In this document: piece by piece, positions 9,655 through 32,328 of the stretch
Position numbering within the stretch: position 1 is the stretch's first letter
Layout: each line of letters opens with the position of its first letter
Source: a virus
Strand: one strand, 5' to 3'
IMG/VR virus record: IMGVR_UViG_3300006920_000140
Span: 1 to 32,328 of that record
Length of the DNA: 32,328 bases
Made by a program: the position numbers and the translations under genes
The notes under the pieces: model-generated
The model's database searches: none
Seen by the model: the letters and a program-made list of their open reading frames with translations, nothing else
Told to the model about the DNA's origin: nothing

Positions 9655-10362
9655 ATGAAACAACAAGAAATTAAAAGAACTTTAAACTACAATCTATTTA
9701 CAAAAATTATTGGCAACAGACAACTAGATCCTAAAAACGTTAAAAGAATCAAAGAGTCTGTAGAATCAATCGGATTACAAACACCTATAATGGTAAACTA
9801 TAAGCATGGAATTATAGACGGTCAGCACAGGTTACAAGTCGCTAAAGAATTAGGCATAGCTATTGAGTATTTTGTAGTCAAGAATTTTAAAGAAGAGAAT
9901 ATACATGATTTACAAATTAGTAAAAAGTGGACGGCATTTGATTTTGCACAACGTAACGCTGCGACAGGAAACAAAGAATGCATACAAGCATTAGAAATAT
10001 GTAATGATTGGCATATTGACTCTAAAAAGAAATTTAGTAAAACAAACATTTTAACGCTATTACTAACAGGATTACAAAACAATATTTTAACAAAACTAAA
10101 AGAAAACGATTTTGTGTCAGATACATCTAGGGCTTGTAGAATATATAATTGCATTAAAATATTATCAACTAATAAAAACGAGAAATTTAATTCTTACTCA
10201 GCAAACATAAGCAGGATATTAAAAACATTAGATTATCAGTTTAAAGGACTAGACTATAAAATAATAGAAAAAATAAACAAAAAGCATTACTTAGAACATT
10301 ACTCAAATGCTAAAGATCAAACAAGATACTTAACAGATTTATATAAAAAATATGCTAAATAA
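9655..10362 (+). CDS. ParB-fold (ParB/Srx) protein
   Basis: 235 residues. Residues 1-75 form a ParB N-terminal domain: P-K-N-V-K-R-I-K-E-S, then T-P-I-M-V and the nucleotide-binding motif I-I-D-G-Q-H-R (53-59). The remaining ~160 residues are basic and helical without a recognised motif. Family members bind CTP or ATP, and some cut or clamp DNA. No ParA is nearby, so plasmid-like partition is unlikely. A role in phage replication or host-DNA interference is possible. The next gene overlaps by 11 bases. Confidence 0.75.
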   Translation: MKQQEIKRTLNYNLFTKIIGNRQLDPKNVKRIKESVESIGLQTPIMVNYKHGIIDGQHRLQVAKELGIAIEYFVVKNFKEENIHDLQISKKWTAFDFAQRNAATGNKECIQALEICNDWHIDSKKKFSKTNILTLLLTGLQNNILTKLKENDFVSDTSRACRIYNCIKILSTNKNEKFNSYSANISRILKTLDYQFKGLDYKIIEKINKKHYLEHYSNAKDQTRYLTDLYKKYAK

Positions 10363-10735
10363 TTCAAAACCTATAAACATAGCAGACAAGATCTCTGAGC
10401 TTTCAGGGATCGACGTCTTTGCTAATAACCGAGAGCGCAAAGTTGTTGAGGTTAGAGCCTTACTAACTTACTTGCTAAGAGACAAGCTAAAAATGAGATG
10501 GAAAAATATAGTTCTGTTTTATGACCAAAACGGTAAGAAAATTAATATGGCAAATGTAATGCACAGCTATAAAAAATACCCTTACTATCAACAACAAAAC
10601 TCAGAGCTAATAAACCTACAGAGTCAGTTTGTTTTTGATCCCGATATATCACATGACGAAATTAATCAAATAGACTATCTAGAAAAGAAATGCAAAAGAC
10701 TAGAAAAGAAACTAGAGGAACAACTAAACAAATAA
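10352..10735 (+). CDS. DnaA domain IV-like DNA-binding protein
   Basis: 127 residues. Residues 20-75 resemble the origin-binding domain of DnaA: R-x-x-x-V-V-E-V-R-x-x-x-x-Y-L-L-R, then an N-x-x-N-V-M-H-S-Y-K-K segment where DnaA has its D-H-T-T-V signature. The ATPase domain of DnaA is absent. The C-terminus (105-127) is a coiled coil. It could bind the phage origin or interfere with host initiation. The signature helix is diverged, so the assignment rests on overall spacing. Confidence 0.55.
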   Translation: MLNNSKPINIADKISELSGIDVFANNRERKVVEVRALLTYLLRDKLKMRWKNIVLFYDQNGKKINMANVMHSYKKYPYYQQQNSELINLQSQFVFDPDISHDEINQIDYLEKKCKRLEKKLEEQLNK

Positions 10736-10739
10736 AGAT

Positions 10740-11288
10740 ATGATTGAGAAAGTAAAAATAACAGAAGTCTTTTCTAATCCTACAAACCCGAGGAGCATTA
10801 AAGAGGCAGAATTTAAAAAGCTAGTTAAAAGCATTAAGGATTTTCCAGAAATGTTAAACCTAAGACCTATCGTTGTAAATGCAGAGGGTGGCATTATAGG
10901 TGGCAATATGCGTTATCAAGCCTGTAAAGAGATTGGACTTAAAGAGATCCCAGTAATACGAGCAGAGAACCTAACAGAAGCACAGATAGAGCAATTTATT
11001 ATTAAAGACAACGTCAGTTTTGGCGATTGGGATTGGGACATCCTTGCTAACGATTGGACTTCTAGCGAACTAAACGATTGGGGACTGGGAGTTTGGGAAA
11101 ACAAAATTGAGACTACAGACTTTAAACCCGAGATGTTTCCTGGTCAATCGGATCAAGAAGTTACTGACGCTGATATTCAAAAGGGAGCGGATAACATAGG
11201 AAGCACATTCCAAAAAGGAACAGAAAAAAAATTTATTGAAACTATGTGCCCAGAGTGCGGACACGAATTTAATGTAGCGCAGGAATGA
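10740..11288 (+). CDS. ParB-like domain protein of the methyltransferase-associated type
   Basis: 182 residues. The N-terminal ~75 residues are the ParB-like domain often fused in front of phage DNA methyltransferases: N-P-T-N-P-R, then I-I-G-G-N-M-R-Y-Q-A (52-61). The usual His of G-x-x-H-R is Met here. A D-N-V-S-F-G-D-W-D-W segment follows. The end has one Cys-Pro-x-Cys-Gly-His pair (170-175), half a zinc ribbon. The methyltransferase is encoded separately at 11932, after SpeD and an unknown gene, as if a fusion had been split. It overlaps speD by ATGA. Confidence 0.75.
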   Translation: MIEKVKITEVFSNPTNPRSIKEAEFKKLVKSIKDFPEMLNLRPIVVNAEGGIIGGNMRYQACKEIGLKEIPVIRAENLTEAQIEQFIIKDNVSFGDWDWDILANDWTSSELNDWGLGVWENKIETTDFKPEMFPGQSDQEVTDADIQKGADNIGSTFQKGTEKKFIETMCPECGHEFNVAQE

Positions 11289-11653
11289 GAAACGGAAAAC
11301 ATTTACTTATAGATGCCTACGGATGCAATAGAGATCCTTTAAACGACGAAGATCTTATCAGGAGTATGTTACTAGATATTACAAAACTAATAGGCTTAAA
11401 ACCGCTCTCTGATCCTTTAATCTATGTAGTAGACGAAACCATGATTGACATTAAAAGCATAGGGATTACAGGAGGTATTATATTTATGGAGTCGCATTTT
11501 ACTTTTCATGCGTTTCCAGAGTTAGATTATTTCTCTGCCGACATATACTCTTGTAAGGATTTCGAGCATGGGTCTGTTATTAAATACATCGACAATCTAT
11601 TTACGCCCGAACATTTAAAAGAAACAGTAATACTAAGAGGATCAACGCTATGA
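11285..11653 (+). CDS. speD: S-adenosylmethionine decarboxylase proenzyme
   Basis: 122 residues, the usual size of the short (class 1B) bacterial enzyme. G-K-H-L-L-I-D-A-Y-G-C at the start and M-E-S-H-F-T-F-H-A-F-P-E at 68-79 are characteristic. From family knowledge, self-cleavage occurs between Glu69 and Ser70, Ser70 becomes the pyruvoyl group, and His75 and Cys90 correspond to the conserved processing and catalytic residues. All are present, so the enzyme should be active. It converts S-adenosylmethionine to decarboxylated SAM, the aminopropyl donor for spermidine synthesis. No spermidine synthase is in the window. ATGA overlaps couple it to the ParB-like gene before and the unknown gene after. 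Confidence 0.9.
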   Translation: MRNGKHLLIDAYGCNRDPLNDEDLIRSMLLDITKLIGLKPLSDPLIYVVDETMIDIKSIGITGGIIFMESHFTFHAFPELDYFSADIYSCKDFEHGSVIKYIDNLFTPEHLKETVILRGSTL

Positions 11654-11928
11654 CAAAAGAAGAGATACATTTATTTTTAGAATTAGAAACAACATTCACA
11701 TTCGCTAAGTCTATGGCTAACATTCCGCATAGTTGGATATGCAGAAAATACTATTCGGATTCTGTGTTTTTAAAAGCGATGCAGTATATAAACGATAACG
11801 GATATAAAGAGAAATTTTACAATAAAGAATATACATACTATAATATAGGAGACTATAAATATTGGGTAATGACAGACGAAAAAGGATTTGACGATCCGAC
11901 TGCAATAATTAATCGAGCAAAAATATAA
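11650..11928 (+). CDS. Unknown protein between speD and the methyltransferase
   Basis: 92 residues. The first half is helical (F-L-E-L-E-T-T-F-T-F-A-K). The second half has many Tyr, ending in D-Y-K-Y-W-V-M-T-D-E and I-I-N-R-A-K. I recall small phage proteins with a similar Y-K-Y-W-x-M...I-N-R-A ending next to methyltransferase genes, but know of no function. It overlaps speD by ATGA and lies three bases before the methyltransferase, so it belongs to the same translational unit. Confidence 0.7.
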   Translation: MTKEEIHLFLELETTFTFAKSMANIPHSWICRKYYSDSVFLKAMQYINDNGYKEKFYNKEYTYYNIGDYKYWVMTDEKGFDDPTAIINRAKI

Positions 11929-11931
11929 ATT

Positions 11932-12555
11932 ATGAAAACAATAGAAATCGGAAAACACACAGTATCAAATGAAGATGTGCAAAACGTAGACTTTAACAAA
12001 TTATTAAAAGGATCTAAGGCGCATATACTTTACACAGATCCACCTTGGGGCGATGGCAACATGAAATATTGGTGTACACTAAACAAACGTCATACGGGAC
12101 AGGAAAACGAGGCTATGTCATATAAAAGTCTTATTAAGATAATAAAGAATATGATTAAAAATCATGTTGACGGTTATGTCTTTTTAGAGACAGGAAATAA
12201 ATGGCTAGACGAAACATTAAACGACGTTAAAGATGTTATATATAATGAGAGAGTTTATAACCTTAGATATAAGTCAGGCAGTAAGCTGCTTACAAATCCC
12301 GTAATTGTAGGAACAACGAACCCTAATCTAGTATTGCCTAATTTAGATGCCTTAGAGGGGGCAATAGATGAGGATAGTTTAAAGGTCGCAATTCCTTTAT
12401 TAGCTAAGGAGGGTGCTATTCTGTTAGATCCTACATGCGGTATGGGAAACTCTGCTCGTAGTGCAATACAAAACAAGATGAGGTTTGTAGGAAACGAGTT
12501 TAATTCTAAACGATTGGAAAAAACTATCAACTCTTTAAAAAGAGATAAAAACTAA
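11932..12555 (+). CDS. DNA adenine-N6 or cytosine-N4 methyltransferase
   Basis: 207 residues. Catalytic motif IV (T-D-P-P-W-G, 35-40) comes before the SAM-binding motif I (L-D-P-T-C-G-M-G-N-S, 165-174), the permuted order of beta-class enzymes; N-E-F follows as motif II. The protein is short and the target-recognition part between the motifs (about 45-155) is small. No restriction enzyme is adjacent, so it is probably a solitary methylase protecting phage DNA or changing its regulation. Its specificity cannot be read from sequence. It sits two genes after SpeD, which uses the same cofactor. Confidence 0.82.
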   Translation: MKTIEIGKHTVSNEDVQNVDFNKLLKGSKAHILYTDPPWGDGNMKYWCTLNKRHTGQENEAMSYKSLIKIIKNMIKNHVDGYVFLETGNKWLDETLNDVKDVIYNERVYNLRYKSGSKLLTNPVIVGTTNPNLVLPNLDALEGAIDEDSLKVAIPLLAKEGAILLDPTCGMGNSARSAIQNKMRFVGNEFNSKRLEKTINSLKRDKN

Positions 12556-12577
12556 CATAGAATAACATAAAAATAAC

Positions 12578-13744
12578 ATGAAGGTATACAGTAAAAACAA
12601 TGTACTCGTTGAAGCAGAAAAAAGAATACACAGGCTCTTTGACGATTTCGAGAATGTAGTAGTCGGATTTTCGGGAGGCAAGGACAGTACTGTATGCCTT
12701 AACCTTACATTAAAAATAGCAGAGGAGCGAAACAGACTACCGTTAAAAGTATTATGGGTTGATCAAGAAGCTGAGTGGCAAGGTACGGCTGACTATTGCG
12801 AATCAGTATTTGAAGACAAAAGGATCGAGCCTATGTGGTTTCAAATGCCAATGAAGTGGTTTAATAACGTAAGCTCACATAGTAAATACATTTATATATG
12901 GCAAGACGGAGTTAAGCACATGCGAGAACGCTCAGAGATCTCTATAAAAGAAAACAAGTATTTAGACTTTGGATTTCATGAGCTATTCGAAAAGATTTTT
13001 GCTGTGCATTTTCCTAATCAAAAGTCGTGCTACATTTCGGGTGTTAGAACAGAAGAAAGCCCTAAGAGAATGATGAGCCTTACAAGCTCTTTAACATATA
13101 AAGATATTACATGGGGCAAGAAGCTAAACGAAAGCAAAGGGCATTATACATTTTATCCTATTTATGATTGGAGTTATAGCGACGTCTGGAAATACATCTT
13201 TGATAACAATATAAAATACAACAAGATTTATGATGCCTTATTTACACACGGCGTAAGTGTAAGCGATATGCGGATCTCTAACCTGCATCATGAAACTGCC
13301 ATTCAAAACTTATTATTAATACAGGAGATAGAGCCTAATACATGGAATAGGATCGCTGAACGTATAGACGGAACTAATGCAATCAAACATCTTAAAAGTG
13401 ATGCCTTTAAATGCCCTGCGGATCTGCCGTATATGTTTAAGTCGTGGAAAGAGTACGCATTATACTTAGCAGAAAATCTCGCAAACGACGAGGAGTTTCT
13501 AAAAAAGATGCATAAGAAAATAGAAAAGAATAAAAAGTACATGGTATCGAACAAGGTATATGTGGATTTCTATAAAACGTTAGTTAAAACAGTCCTGTCA
13601 CAAGACTTTGACTTTACTAAGCTCGGCAACTTTCTTACATCGCCGTACTTTAATACAGTAAAGAAATATGCTGACGGAAAACTGACAAGCAAAAACATCG
13701 AGATTAATCGAAAATATGACAAATACGTAAAAGGACTTATATGA
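12578..13744 (+). CDS. PAPS-reductase-like PP-loop protein (IbrA-like, DUF3440 type)
   Basis: 388 residues. The PP-loop S-G-G-K-D-S-T lies at 32-38, and a second family motif, S-G-V-R-T-E-E-S-P-K-R, near residue 160. The C-terminal ~150 residues are an extra helical, Lys-rich domain, as in the DUF3440 group that includes E. coli IbrA. This group is larger than true PAPS reductases and is normally followed by a ParB-like partner, as here (four-base overlap). PP-loop enzymes activate substrates with ATP. Whether this one handles sulphur, a nucleotide or nucleic acid is unknown. Confidence 0.8.
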   Translation: MKVYSKNNVLVEAEKRIHRLFDDFENVVVGFSGGKDSTVCLNLTLKIAEERNRLPLKVLWVDQEAEWQGTADYCESVFEDKRIEPMWFQMPMKWFNNVSSHSKYIYIWQDGVKHMRERSEISIKENKYLDFGFHELFEKIFAVHFPNQKSCYISGVRTEESPKRMMSLTSSLTYKDITWGKKLNESKGHYTFYPIYDWSYSDVWKYIFDNNIKYNKIYDALFTHGVSVSDMRISNLHHETAIQNLLLIQEIEPNTWNRIAERIDGTNAIKHLKSDAFKCPADLPYMFKSWKEYALYLAENLANDEEFLKKMHKKIEKNKKYMVSNKVYVDFYKTLVKTVLSQDFDFTKLGNFLTSPYFNTVKKYADGKLTSKNIEINRKYDKYVKGLI

Positions 13745-14406
13745 AAGCAACTTTAAAAAACCTATTGACTAAAGAGATAAAGGCAGGAGATCAAATTTCT
13801 ATAATAGAAGAGATCAAAGAATTACTGCACAACCTATCGCCATTAAAAGATCAGCCTGTAAACAGGATTAGATGGGTACGGATCGAGGAGGTCTGCCCAA
13901 ACGACTACAACCCTAACTCAGTAGCTAAAAAAGAAATGGGGCTTTTATATACGTCTATTAAGCATGATGGCTATACGCAACCAATCGTAACGATATATGA
14001 CAACGAAAAGAAAATGTATGTTATTATAGACGGGTTTCACAGATACTATACTGCTAAGACTAATGCGGACATCCTAGAACGTAATAAAGGACGTCTGCCG
14101 ATCGTAGTATTGGAAAAGGATATAAACGACCGTATGGCAAGTACGGTACGCCACAATAGAGCAAGAGGTATGCACTCAATAGCAGGAATGTCAAGCATGG
14201 TGTTTACTATGTTAGAGAACGGGTGGAGCGATAAAGAGATCTGCAACGAGTTAGGCATGGGAGTTGAGGAGTTAGTTAAGTTAAAACACATAACAGGATT
14301 CTCTAAGTTATTCGCTGATGCGGAATACAATAAGGCTTGGGAGTCCGCTAATCAAATACGCCTAAAATTAAAACATAAACAAGATGAAAAAACAAAGACA
14401 ATTTAG
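13741..14406 (+). CDS. ParB-like partner of the PP-loop protein (IbrB-like)
   Basis: 221 residues. A leading helical stretch (1-42) precedes a ParB-like domain: V-C-P-N-D-Y-N-P-N-S (51-60), T-Q-P-I-V-T and I-I-D-G-F-H-R-Y (95-102). H-N-R-A-R-G and a helix-turn-helix-like segment around G-W-S-D-K-E-I-C follow. The arrangement and overlap with the upstream PP-loop gene match the IbrA/IbrB pair. ParB-fold partners of this type may bind or hydrolyse nucleotides. The real role in phages is not settled. The following small membrane-protein ORF starts 23 bases before its stop. Confidence 0.78.
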   Translation: MKATLKNLLTKEIKAGDQISIIEEIKELLHNLSPLKDQPVNRIRWVRIEEVCPNDYNPNSVAKKEMGLLYTSIKHDGYTQPIVTIYDNEKKMYVIIDGFHRYYTAKTNADILERNKGRLPIVVLEKDINDRMASTVRHNRARGMHSIAGMSSMVFTMLENGWSDKEICNELGMGVEELVKLKHITGFSKLFADAEYNKAWESANQIRLKLKHKQDEKTKTI

Positions 14407-14506
14407 ATCGAGGCAAGGAAGGTCAGACAAACAATATTCAAGTAGCGTTAAAGCTATACTCGTTGCCTTTATAGCACTAATAATAATAATTTTAACACAA
14501 ATATAA
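14384..14506 (+). CDS. Tiny membrane protein
   Basis: 40 residues. The start overlaps the end of the IbrB-like gene, and its stop shares bases with the next ATG (TAATG). An Arg/Gln/Ser-rich N-terminus (1-22) is followed by one hydrophobic span (23-38) with four successive Ile. No family recognised. The basic cytoplasmic end and single span would fit an inner-membrane superinfection or accessory protein, without further support. Confidence 0.55.
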   Translation: MKKQRQFRSRQGRSDKQYSSSVKAILVAFIALIIIILTQI

Positions 14507-14865
14507 TGGACAAAAGTAGACACATAAAAAAGGAAACACTATTAAAATCACTAGAGCAGAGCTTAGGCGTTGTAACGGTAGCCTGTAGGGAGGCAGGTAT
14601 TCCTAGAAGCACATACTATAAATGGCTAAAAGAAGATTCTGTCTTTGCCGAAGAGGTGCGGGATATTGAGAATGTAGCTTTAGACTTTGCAGAGAGTAAG
14701 CTCCACAATCAAATATCAGCTAACAATACCTCAGCGACTATATTTTACCTAAAGACGAAAGGCAAGAACAGAGGGTATGTAGAACGTCAAGAAATTACAG
14801 GAGCAGAAGGAATGCCTACTAACTTTCAAATCGAGATAATTGGATCAAATAAAGATAAAGACTAA
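14506..14865 (+). CDS. terS: Terminase small subunit
   Basis: 119 residues. An N-terminal helix-turn-helix (about 10-42) with V-A-C-R-E-A-G-I-P-R-S-T-Y-Y-K-W-L is typical of small terminases of the phBC6A51 type. It is followed by an oligomerisation-like helix and K-T-K-G-K-N-R-G-Y near 88-96, also common to the family. It would bind the packaging site and load the large subunit, whose gene overlaps its end by 26 bases. Confidence 0.84.
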   Translation: MDKSRHIKKETLLKSLEQSLGVVTVACREAGIPRSTYYKWLKEDSVFAEEVRDIENVALDFAESKLHNQISANNTSATIFYLKTKGKNRGYVERQEITGAEGMPTNFQIEIIGSNKDKD

Positions 14866-16003
14866 TATCGTATATGATCACTTATTAATCTCTGACAAAA
14901 AGATTATAGTTGAGCAAGGCGGTACTAGGTCAGGTAAAACATATAACATAATACTTTGGATTATTTTCGAGTATTGCACTAATAATAAAAATAAGGTTAT
15001 TACTGTATGCCGTAAATCGTTTCCTAGCTTACGTGCTACTGTTTTAAGAGACTTTATGAGCATATTAGAAGGTCATAACCTTTACAGTGAAAAGTATCAT
15101 AATAAATCTAATTCTGAATATTATCTGTTCGGAAACTTAATCGAGTTTATATCGCTTGATCAACCGCAAAAGATTAGAGGACGTAAAAGAGATCTGCTTT
15201 TTATTAATGAAGGCAACGAGTTATTTTGGGAGGATTGGCAACAGCTAGTTTTTAGAACACAAGAGCGTATTGTTATTGACTTTAATCCGTCAGACGAGTA
15301 TCATTGGATATACGACAAGGTACTGCCTAGAGACGACTGCGCTTTCTTTAAGACTACATACTTAGATAATCCTTTTGTCGAGGAGTCAATAAAAAAAGAG
15401 ATCGAGCTTCTTAAAGATACTGACGAACAGTACTGGCAGATATACGGATTAGGCGAAAGGGCTGCAAGTCGAAGCACCGTATTTAGATACGCTGAGGTTT
15501 CACATATTCCAGAAGACGCAGACCTAGTAGCATACGGAATGGACTTTGGCTTTTCTAATGATCCTAGTACGCTTGTTTCAGTTTATACTAAAGACATAAA
15601 CCTATATGTAAAAGAGCATTTATATAGAACCGCTATGACGACTACTGACATACATAAATTCCTGTTAAGCGAGAAGCTAGAGAACAAACCTATATACGCC
15701 GATAGTGCAGAGCCTAGACTTATTGAGGAGCTAAGACGCATGGGACATAACATTTTTCCAAGCCTAAAAGGTAAAGACTCTGTTAATGCAGGAATAGATC
15801 TATTAAAACGATACAAGATAAATATACTGTCAACGTCTAGTAATGCTATATCAGAGTTTAGAAACTATAAGTGGAAAGAAGACAAGACTGGTGCTTTACT
15901 AAATACGCCTGTAGATGACAACAATCATATAATCGATCCCTGTCGCTATGCTACATATTCGATACTGTCCAAGCCTAGATTCGGGACTTATGCTATTAAT
16001 TAA
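14840..16003 (+). CDS. terL: Terminase large subunit
   Basis: 387 residues. The ATPase has Walker A at 27-34 (G-G-T-R-S-G-K-T) and Walker B L-L-F-I-N-E with the catalytic Glu124. The nuclease has Asp235 in G-M-D-F-G-F, Asp288 in A-D-S-A and Asp366 in H-I-I-D-P. These are the marks of the Terminase_3 group. The best start is a TTG at 14840: no in-frame ATG lies between it and the conserved region, and Walker A begins only 26 codons in. The overlap with terS supports coupling. It cuts concatemers and drives DNA into the prohead through the portal encoded at 27862. Confidence 0.93.
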   Translation: MDQIKIKTNIVYDHLLISDKKIIVEQGGTRSGKTYNIILWIIFEYCTNNKNKVITVCRKSFPSLRATVLRDFMSILEGHNLYSEKYHNKSNSEYYLFGNLIEFISLDQPQKIRGRKRDLLFINEGNELFWEDWQQLVFRTQERIVIDFNPSDEYHWIYDKVLPRDDCAFFKTTYLDNPFVEESIKKEIELLKDTDEQYWQIYGLGERAASRSTVFRYAEVSHIPEDADLVAYGMDFGFSNDPSTLVSVYTKDINLYVKEHLYRTAMTTTDIHKFLLSEKLENKPIYADSAEPRLIEELRRMGHNIFPSLKGKDSVNAGIDLLKRYKINILSTSSNAISEFRNYKWKEDKTGALLNTPVDDNNHIIDPCRYATYSILSKPRFGTYAIN

Positions 16004-30500: not shown

Positions 30501-30601
30501 CATATAAGATAAAAAAGGAAAACATTAAGAAATTAAAGATCTTCTTAAAAAAGGTCAAAAATAACAAAACAAAAAAAGAAAAGAATGGCAACTCTATTTA
30601 A
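30497..30601 (+). CDS. Tiny Lys-rich ORF between connector and fibre
   Basis: 34 residues, 16 of them Lys. It starts at ATGA on the connector stop and runs 17 bases into the fibre gene. The tight overlaps favour translation, but such a Lys/Asn composition arises easily in AT-rich DNA, so it may only serve translational coupling. Confidence 0.4.
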   Translation: MTYKIKKENIKKLKIFLKKVKNNKTKKEKNGNSI

Positions 30602-32328
30602 CACTAAAATATCTCAAACCTACGAGGGTCTGATTAAGACGTTTGATAATGCAGCAATTACTGCGACGCTAAAAGAGCTTACAGACGGATCTGGAAACCA
30701 GTCGGGTTTATACATGAATACGGCAGGGGATTTTAAAGTAACGAATATTTTAGAATGGGGATCGCTTAAAGATACAGGCACAGGAGTTACAATAACTCGT
30801 TTCGTAACTTCTACTGACGGCATAGAGAATTTTGATAATAACACGTCTCTGCCTACATCGGCTGCCGTAAAACTATACGTTGATTCTAAATTTGCTACGT
30901 CAGACACTTTAGAAGAAGTTTTATCATTTGGCAATACAACAGGTGCAACCAATATAGTTATACAAAAAAGCATACAGTTACCAACAACAACTACAAACAA
31001 TGGAACACCTACAGATGTTGGTGTAATATCATTTGGTGGAACTTTTAGTAATGGAAATAGAATATTCAATGATGCTACAGGTGGTAATTTAAGAATACAG
31101 GGAACTGACAATTTATCTTTATTTGCTCCAAATCATAAAATTTCAAATGTTAATGGTAGTTTAATTACAGCAGGAGATACTGGAGTAAAATTGTTTTATC
31201 AAAATTCACAAAAATTACAAACAACAACATCAGGAATAGATGTTACTGGTAATCTTGTAGTAAGTGGAACTATAACAGGTTCAGGTGGTTCATTCTTGCC
31301 ACTTGCAGGGGGTACAATGAGTGGTAATATTGTTTTAAACGATAATGTTAAATCTATTTATGGTACTTCTTCTGATGGTCTTGAAATATATCACGATGGT
31401 TCAAATAGCTATATAGCTGATACTGGAACAGGAACATTAAATCTACGTGGAAGTACGCAAGTTCTTATATCAGGAGCAAATGGAGAAGTAGGAGTTCAAT
31501 ATGTAGAAAATGCAGGTGTTAATTTAAGACATAATAACATACAAAAACTTGGAACAAGTAGCGCAGGAGTAGATGTTACAGGTACTTTATCTACTACATC
31601 AAATGTAACAGTAGGAGCAAATGCAACTTTTATAGATAATGGAAAAGCCTTATTTGGTGCAGGGTCTGACTTAGAAATATACCACGATGGTTCTCATAAT
31701 TATTTTAAAGGAGCACCTAATTTATATATACAAACTAATGGAGCATTTAATGTAGAAACAGTTTCAGAAGTAGATATGATAAAAGCCACAGCAGGAAGTG
31801 GTGTAGAACTTTATTTTGCAGGAAATAAAAAACTAGAAACACTTACAGATGGTGCAAAGGTTACAGGTAATTTAGAAGTAACAGGCACAATTACAGGTAG
31901 TGGTGGCTCGTTCTTACCATTAGCAGGTGGAACTATGACAGGCAATACTATCCATAATGATAATGTAAAGTCTATTTACGGAACATCTAGTGATGGGTTA
32001 GAAGTTTATCACGATGGTTCTCATTCATACCTAAAAGATACAGGAACAGGAGATTTAAAAATTTCATCTAATACTGTAAGAATAGAATCCGATGGTGCTG
32101 AGAATATGATTATTGCTAGTGCTAATGGAGCAGTAAATCTTTATTACAATAACAATCAAAAAATAGCAACTACAAACACAGGTATAGCAGTAACAGGAAA
32201 TGCATCATTATCAACAGGGTTTTCTATTGTAGATGACCAATATGGTAAATTTGGAAATAATGATGATTTAATTATAGGACACGGAGGTTCTAGCCTTATA
32301 AGAAGTTTATCAGGAGATTTATACATTG
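30585..32328 (+). CDS. Tail fibre, N-terminal part (3' partial)
   Basis: 581 codons and still open at the window end. Residues 1-110 look like the virion-attachment part (M-A-T-L-F-N-T-K-I-S-Q-T-Y-E-G-L-I-K). From about residue 115 the style changes to modules with I-D-V-T-G-N, G-S-F-L-P-L-A-G-G-T-M-x-G-N and G-L-E-[IV]-Y-H-D-G-S, common in marine phage fibres. One such module is duplicated 618 bases apart. The last GATC is at 30760, and the rest has the composition of 1-2292. The C-terminal half is most likely the frame at 1-2292. Confidence 0.86.
   Translation, partial: MATLFNTKISQTYEGLIKTFDNAAITATLKELTDGSGNQSGLYMNTAGDFKVTNILEWGSLKDTGTGVTITRFVTSTDGIENFDNNTSLPTSAAVKLYVDSKFATSDTLEEVLSFGNTTGATNIVIQKSIQLPTTTTNNGTPTDVGVISFGGTFSNGNRIFNDATGGNLRIQGTDNLSLFAPNHKISNVNGSLITAGDTGVKLFYQNSQKLQTTTSGIDVTGNLVVSGTITGSGGSFLPLAGGTMSGNIVLNDNVKSIYGTSSDGLEIYHDGSNSYIADTGTGTLNLRGSTQVLISGANGEVGVQYVENAGVNLRHNNIQKLGTSSAGVDVTGTLSTTSNVTVGANATFIDNGKALFGAGSDLEIYHDGSHNYFKGAPNLYIQTNGAFNVETVSEVDMIKATAGSGVELYFAGNKKLETLTDGAKVTGNLEVTGTITGSGGSFLPLAGGTMTGNTIHNDNVKSIYGTSSDGLEVYHDGSHSYLKDTGTGDLKISSNTVRIESDGAENMIIASANGAVNLYYNNNQKIATTNTGIAVTGNASLSTGFSIVDDQYGKFGNNDDLIIGHGGSSLIRSLSGDLYI
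31271..32030 (+). repeat. In-frame duplicated fibre module (618-base spacing)
   Basis: Two copies, near 31271-31410 and 31889-32030, encode almost the same protein: T-G-S-G-G-S-F-L-P-L-A-G-G-T-M-[ST]-G-N followed by N-D-N-V-K-S-I-Y-G-T-S-S-D-G-L-E. Many differences between the DNA copies are at third codon positions, so the duplication is old or under protein-level selection. Confidence 0.8.

Follow-up and report, generated by a model that had tools for sequence, protein, structure and literature searches.

The stretch of viral DNA analysed here, IMG/VR record IMGVR_UViG_3300006920_000140 (positions 1 to 32,328; hereafter the window), is a record of 32,328 bases in which a speD gene lies among genes that resemble a DNA-modification cassette. 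The following six open reading frames (ORFs) make up this cassette in the window.

10740..11288, + strand: ParB-A, ParB-like protein (ParB_N PF02195, 2.7e-8; phrog_498/620), directly 5' of speD, an adjacency kept in relatives
11285..11653, + strand: speD, class 1b SpeD-type pyruvoyl decarboxylase of 122 amino acids (AdoMet_dc PF02675, 3e-22)
11650..11928, + strand: u92, an uncharacterised domain of 92 amino acids, fused in relatives to SpeD or to class I S-adenosylmethionine (SAM) methyltransferases
11932..12555, + strand: slot methyltransferase, predicted beta-class N6/N4 amino-methyltransferase fold (motifs DPPW and DPTCGMGN; PF01555, 5e-4), in an exchangeable slot
12578..13744, + strand: PP-loop ATP pyrophosphatase of the PAPS-reductase/DUF3440 type (SGGKDST; PF01507, 5e-19; PF11922, 9e-8; phrog_2302, 8.7e-81)
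13741..14406, + strand: ParB-B, ParB/Srx-like partner of the PP-loop protein (phrog_2159, 2.8e-70)

A preliminary description of this DNA had reported six ORFs joined by ATGA overlaps or by gaps of at most 22 bases, and the coordinates, the DNA letters and the profile matches bear this out: 4-nucleotide ATGA overlaps are read from the letters at 11285 and 11650 and from the coordinates at 13741, and the gaps measure 3 bases between u92 and the methyltransferase gene and 22 bases between the latter and the PP-loop gene. The order ParB, speD, u92, variable slot, PP-loop ATPase and second ParB recurs in related viral contigs and cannot be put down to chance, because roughly 20 further contigs, evolving under purifying selection, repeat it (the ratio of nonsynonymous to synonymous variation, pN/pS, is 0.05-0.33 over the speD, u92, methyltransferase and PP-loop genes and 0.14-0.28 for speD). 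A search with SpeD gave 23 contigs with close relatives (59-100% identity), and u92 lies directly 3' of speD in 19 of them. As for the others, the u92 domain is directly upstream of speD in L023 (59% identity in SpeD, 41% in the PP-loop protein), one contig (L004) ends at speD, and in two records of about 90 kb (L019 and L021) speD stands beside ribonucleotide reductase in a locus without the cassette and in a record without a PP-loop gene. Finding speD scattered without these neighbours had been named as the outcome that would tell against a link, and it was seen in these two close relatives and not in the rest. The pelagiphage speD genes of L139, L143 and L144 are likewise near ribonucleotide reductase, which makes this a second recurrent speD neighbourhood.

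Recruitment of SpeD and its fusion to u92

The wider cassette set comprised 120 distinct PP-loop proteins enriched for relatives of the window, and because it was gathered from window sequences, the fractions that follow are not population estimates. ParB-B is directly 3' of the PP-loop gene in 105 of the 120 cassettes, and u92 is present in 69 of the 83 that have more than 2.3 kb of upstream sequence. The methyltransferase is not among the constant partners of the cassette, which are u92 and the PP-loop/ParB pair. SpeD enters this arrangement in several forms. For example, a type B enzyme (TTSHIVLHTW) is encoded directly upstream of the PP-loop gene in L081, L114, L115, L127 and L128, and a search with the methyltransferase as query added the cassette SpeDs of L248, L256-258, L269, L273, L278, L279 and L282-284. 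The SpeD tree, in which some branches are long and some supports moderate, places the cassette enzymes in at least four separate groups (A, B1, B2 and C), with the pelagiphage enzymes falling between B1 and B2 and B2 being closer to them than to B1, and the position of SpeD inside the PP-loop/ParB cassette differs between groups. The phylogeny thus indicates that SpeD was drawn into the cassette more than once. When 100 contigs picked by their PP-loop or methyltransferase gene were scanned with PF02675, SpeD was found in 12, and in all 12 it was inside the cassette.

Four distinct proteins join SpeD to u92, three in the order SpeD-u92 (L256/L257/L258, L273 and L284; u92 matches of 4e-31 to 3e-34, SpeD matches of 1e-27 or better) and one in the reverse order (L248; u92 5e-11, SpeD 1e-32). 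Identity among the fusions of L256, L273 and L284 is about 60%, so a single assembly error is not their source. Such fusions suggest that the product of SpeD is used inside the cassette, and a functional coupling of SpeD to the cassette is very probable.

The u92 domain gave no match in profile searches of Pfam, PHROG, NCBIfam and PADLOC. Its AlphaFold2 model is confident (predicted local distance difference test score of 90), and searches of the model against the PDB returned no usable match (best Foldseek E value 0.3; best VIA-align Z 4.8). Where cassettes lack SpeD, u92 can be joined to sequence resembling class I SAM methyltransferases (L100, L105, L106, L110, L129, L130, L133 and L134), and these fused methyltransferases weakly match a tRNA methyltransferase PHROG. 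In L023, L278 and L282, u92 forms the C-terminal part behind a different, uncharacterised domain. From these fusions, the best-defined partners of u92 are SAM methyltransferases and SpeD. A tblastn search for u92 and the slot methyltransferase in cultured phages found neither.

The exchangeable slot and the flanking genes

The slot methyltransferase is weak by sequence and clear by structure. Its model matches MboIIA, M.BceJIV and M1.HpyAVI with Z scores of 18-19, carries DPPW before motif I and is smaller than these solved relatives; the enzyme is accordingly modelled with a DNA N6-adenine methyltransferase fold. That this gene is exchangeable had escaped the preliminary description. In close relatives the slot is filled by the window methyltransferase or by a glycosyltransferase-like gene, the latter either on its own or accompanied by a second small methyltransferase; L016 has an additional GNAT-like gene. 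In the wider set the slot holds methyltransferases and glycosyltransferase-like (glucosyltransferase-like), GNAT-like and oxygenase/cupin-like genes. ORFs of about 167 amino acids just 5' of the PP-loop gene in L093, L110, L112, L113, L116, L118 and L120 share the pattern HTDPRYPRYxWHLIL...DTHSPHQL; they look cupin- or 2-oxoglutarate-oxygenase-like by eye and have weak Pfam matches.

It had been proposed that speD is coupled to the methyltransferase. The coupling holds for the cassette, given at least four SpeD groups and u92 fusions in both orders, but not for the methyltransferase specifically: an exclusive association was rejected, since the slot is swapped and the presence of SpeD is independent of that of the methyltransferase (Fisher p=0.43). 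A six-residue SpeD signature in the methyltransferases (D41, D80, T87, T129, N173 and F190) was dropped because the SpeD-linked methyltransferases of L256, L273, L279 and L284 have Y at the T87 site, and a clade of SpeD-linked methyltransferases had a support of just 78/81, with alternatives not rejected.

Outside the six genes lie a further ParB-like gene and the terminase genes, which flank the block and were likewise missing from the preliminary description.

9655..10362, + strand: third ParB-like gene (phrog_12305, 1.6e-17), absent from some relatives, of uncertain cassette membership
14506..16003, + strand: terminase small and large subunits (PF04466, 4.8e-23; phrog_309), 3' of the cassette, given as context

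Between the third ParB-like gene and ParB-A, a gene at 10352-10735 that is conserved in relatives weakly matches a DnaA C-terminal helix-turn-helix domain (PF08299, 0.003). The large terminase gene (14840-16003) has a TTG start call and a 26-base overlap with the terS-like gene. Towards the end of the record (30501-32328) there are few coding-strand ORFs and two short minus-strand ORFs, and no end repeat was found in the record.

Substrate of SpeD and polyamine context

The window SpeD matches the class 1b S-adenosylmethionine decarboxylase (AdoMetDC) family (PF02675, 79.4 bits against a cut-off of 25). Its processing and catalytic residues Ser70, His75 and Cys90 (S63, H68 and C83 in Thermotoga maritima, Tm, numbering) are intact and invariant across all aligned relatives, and Ser, His and Cys are kept in every cassette SpeD type; the full processing set that had been described is therefore present, although these residues do not settle the substrate. 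The window type also retains Glu62, Pro71 and Glu72 (Tm numbering), as does the proven AdoMetDC of Croceibacter phage P2559S (PMC9992855). The gamma-Pro, reported to discriminate AdoMetDC from arginine decarboxylase (PMC10407285) and taken here as Tm Pro71, is present in the window enzyme (HAFPE) and missing in types B and C; as a criterion it is not absolute, because phiN3, a proven AdoMetDC, lacks it. Four residues (Gln, Thr, Phe and Tyr) are diagnostic of ornithine decarboxylases. The window type has ESH; type B enzymes have TSH and YSC or YTC, and they share TSH and the lack of the gamma-Pro with the pelagiphage enzymes.

The tree groups the window SpeD with a phage clade that contains the pelagiphage enzymes; a fuller tree puts it on the same weakly supported side as phiN3 (94/79; long branches). 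The T. maritima SpeD sequence used in the tree matches the PDB alignment over residues 5-107. Among phage homologues of SpeD, some decarboxylate arginine or ornithine (PMC9992855, PMC10407285): the SpeD of pelagiphage HTVC201P acts on arginine, and ornithine is the substrate of others (PMC9992855). Because the residues are AdoMetDC-like but the clade holds substrate-changed phage enzymes, the product could be decarboxylated SAM, agmatine or putrescine, and the chance that the window enzyme makes decarboxylated SAM appears about even. A pattern search of bacterial genomes found no close relative of the window SpeD.

A spermidine synthase, whose absence had been noted in the window record, was found neither there nor in 25 other SpeD-bearing phage records (0 of 26, some of which may be fragments). 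By their portal protein, the nearest cultured relatives are the Nonlabens phages P12024S/L (40%), which makes a host in the Flavobacteriaceae likely, not proven. Among 149 genomes of this family, SpeD occurs in nine, and almost all strong SpeE matches are in these SpeD-bearing genomes; weaker PF01564 matches in 51 more genomes are possibly unrelated proteins. If the host belongs to this family, decarboxylated SAM would therefore usually meet no host enzyme that uses it.

A proposed amine donor for the cassette, rival readings and known counterparts

We favour, with a probability of roughly 45%, a modular cassette of u92, PP-loop ATPase and ParB-like proteins in which SpeD makes an amine-bearing donor, probably for modification of phage DNA. 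The core sits just upstream of the terminase genes, SpeD is one of several optional enzymes, and the pyruvoyl decarboxylase would yield a small amine-bearing donor consumed by the cassette rather than in host spermidine synthesis. For the window enzyme this donor would most likely be decarboxylated SAM, with its aminopropyl group, and for type B enzymes agmatine or putrescine. The recipient of the donor group would most likely be the DNA of the phage itself, which the cassette would modify ahead of packaging and thereby hide from host nucleases. This explanation is favoured because of the u92 fusions, the DNA-methyltransferase fold and the phage CmoA/CmoX precedent described below, and the presence in the slot of group-transfer enzymes (DNA-methyltransferase fold, glucosyltransferase-like and GNAT) also counts for it. 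Confidence differs between the steps and is a matter of judgement, not computation. The cassette probably modifies nucleic acid, and the balance tips slightly towards phage DNA as its target; it is doubtful that the slot methyltransferase itself uses decarboxylated SAM to aminopropylate a base of phage DNA.

Several observations weigh against the amine-donor explanation. SpeD is optional, being carried by 22 of the 83 PP-loop cassettes with more than 2.3 kb upstream and missing from most PP-loop/u92 cassettes, and its presence does not follow that of the methyltransferase. A main weakness lies in six close relatives with SpeD (L003, L005, L012, L014, L024 and L023), which have a glycosyltransferase-like slot gene and no N6/N4 methyltransferase, and thus no obvious user of decarboxylated SAM (the slot content of L012 comes from homology to L014). 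The window SpeD narrowly misses the NCBIfam equivalog TIGR03330 (72.2 bits, cut-off 75.65), and all cassette SpeDs, the window's included, fall outside the canonical AdoMetDC clade (split 99/98, with long branches). The scan of window proteins turned up no gene of the base hydroxymethylase type, and the presence of modified DNA in these phages is a proposal drawn from their genes.

SpeD might instead be nothing more than an auxiliary metabolic gene whose product increases polyamines for replication or packaging, with a location that reflects shared transcription only. The frequency of speD, the commonest polyamine gene in phages (PMC9992855), is in keeping with this, as are the speD genes near ribonucleotide reductase in the pelagiphages and in L019/L021, which lack a PP-loop gene, and the terminase genes that adjoin the cassette. 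Such a role seems unlikely given that proteins join SpeD and u92 in either order, that at least four SpeD groups were recruited to the same cassette and SpeD was inside it in 12 of 12 contigs, that the phage records have no spermidine synthase and that the likely host family mostly lacks SpeD (140 of 149 genomes). Alternatively, the window SpeD might also be of the SpeDA/SpeDC type and make agmatine or putrescine, with the PP-loop ATPase activating a base carbonyl and substituting the amine as in tRNA lysidine synthesis. The branching of the window SpeD with the pelagiphage-containing clade away from canonical AdoMetDCs (99/98) fits this scheme, as do the arginine and ornithine decarboxylases among phage homologues (PMC9992855), the resemblance of type B enzymes to pelagiphage SpeDs (TSH, no gamma-Pro) and the constancy of the PP-loop gene, which the methyltransferase does not share. 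We consider it rather unlikely, as the window type keeps Glu62, Pro71 and Glu72 like the P2559S enzyme, the Pro being the reported discriminator (PMC10407285). Moreover, PP-loop cassettes mostly lack SpeD, which argues that the core reaction is independent of its product.

A target other than DNA, such as tRNA, protein or a surface glycan, with SpeD supplying the amine, is improbable. The substrate of PP-loop enzymes is often tRNA, the u92-fused methyltransferases weakly match a tRNA methyltransferase PHROG, and the glycosyltransferase-like and GNAT slot genes are not DNA-specific. Against it stand the DNA amino-methyltransferase fold of the slot methyltransferase (Z 18-19), the resemblance of the PP-loop protein to DndC/BrxP in PADLOC, its ParB-like partners and the adjacent terminase genes. 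The suggestion, made in the preliminary description, that SpeD depletes the SAM pool and so blunts SAM-dependent host restriction now looks very improbable. Other phages do possess SAM-destroying anti-restriction enzymes, and SpeD would consume SAM if it is an AdoMetDC. However, SAM should be required by the cassette's own methyltransferase, type B enzymes resemble arginine or ornithine decarboxylases, substrate-changed phage homologues are slow (kcat <1 per second; PMC9992855), and depletion leaves the u92 fusion unexplained.

Phage speD is usually read as a metabolic booster, whereas here a whole group is tied to a modification-like cassette; repeated recruitment and fusion imply that at least part of the polyamine annotation of phage speD is probably wrong. 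The locus is a concrete example in which DNA may receive an amine that derives from SAM or an amino acid, and the u92 domain and the PP-loop/ParB pair acquire partners that can be tested. Aminopropyl transfer, if true, would be a previously unknown DNA modification and would employ decarboxylated SAM for something other than polyamine synthesis. The link was not described in any paper found by searching the literature for SpeD with ParB or PAPS reductase, or for DNA carrying aminopropyl groups; subscription papers and preprints lay outside the search.

In known systems, a PAPS-reductase-type PP-loop protein (DUF3440) adjoining a ParB/Srx-like protein recalls the IbrA/IbrB-like and DndC/DndB-like pairs. 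We know of no established function for IbrAB. The cassette differs from Dnd phosphorothioation systems in that its PP-loop protein scores 37.9 bits against the DndC equivalog, far below the cut-off of 290.4, and no further Dnd protein was seen in it. In a check for an invariant cysteine that might point to sulfur chemistry, none in the PP-loop protein reached 95%, and one column had Cys in 67 of 74 rows. Phage SpeD, SpeDA and SpeDC enzymes share family, size and processing residues with the window enzyme and mostly lack a spermidine synthase alongside, but they are interpreted as polyamine auxiliary genes, and the available text of these studies notes no cassette link or fusion partner (PMC9992855, PMC10407285). 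In P2559S, a Flavobacteriaceae phage whose SpeD has the ESH...FPE motif, speD overlaps gp66, apparently a fusion of an N-terminal ParB-like and a C-terminal methyltransferase part (L140, 42666-44307), so that a ParB-methyltransferase-speD neighbourhood exists outside the PP-loop cassette; its SpeD differs in belonging to the canonical AdoMetDC clade, and neither u92 nor a PP-loop gene appears in the annotation next to it. The precedent for a remade SAM is Synechococcus phage S-B43, in which the carboxy-SAM formed by CmoA serves the methyltransferase homologue CmoX, and CmoA-CmoX-CmoY form a carboxymethylcytosine system (PMC12783734). The window has a pyruvoyl decarboxylase where that system has a carboxy-SAM synthase (CmoA), its slot enzyme is of the beta-class N6/N4 type where CmoX belongs to the cytosine-C5 methyltransferases, and the available account notes no PP-loop/u92 core (PMC12783734); Pfam and PHROG profiles found no CmoA-like match among the cassette proteins. 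What the two have in common is a phage gene cluster in which a small SAM-remaking enzyme feeds a methyltransferase homologue acting on DNA, here proposed from the gene content, and, in the CmoX neighbourhoods as in the window, the presence of ParB-domain genes (PMC12783734).

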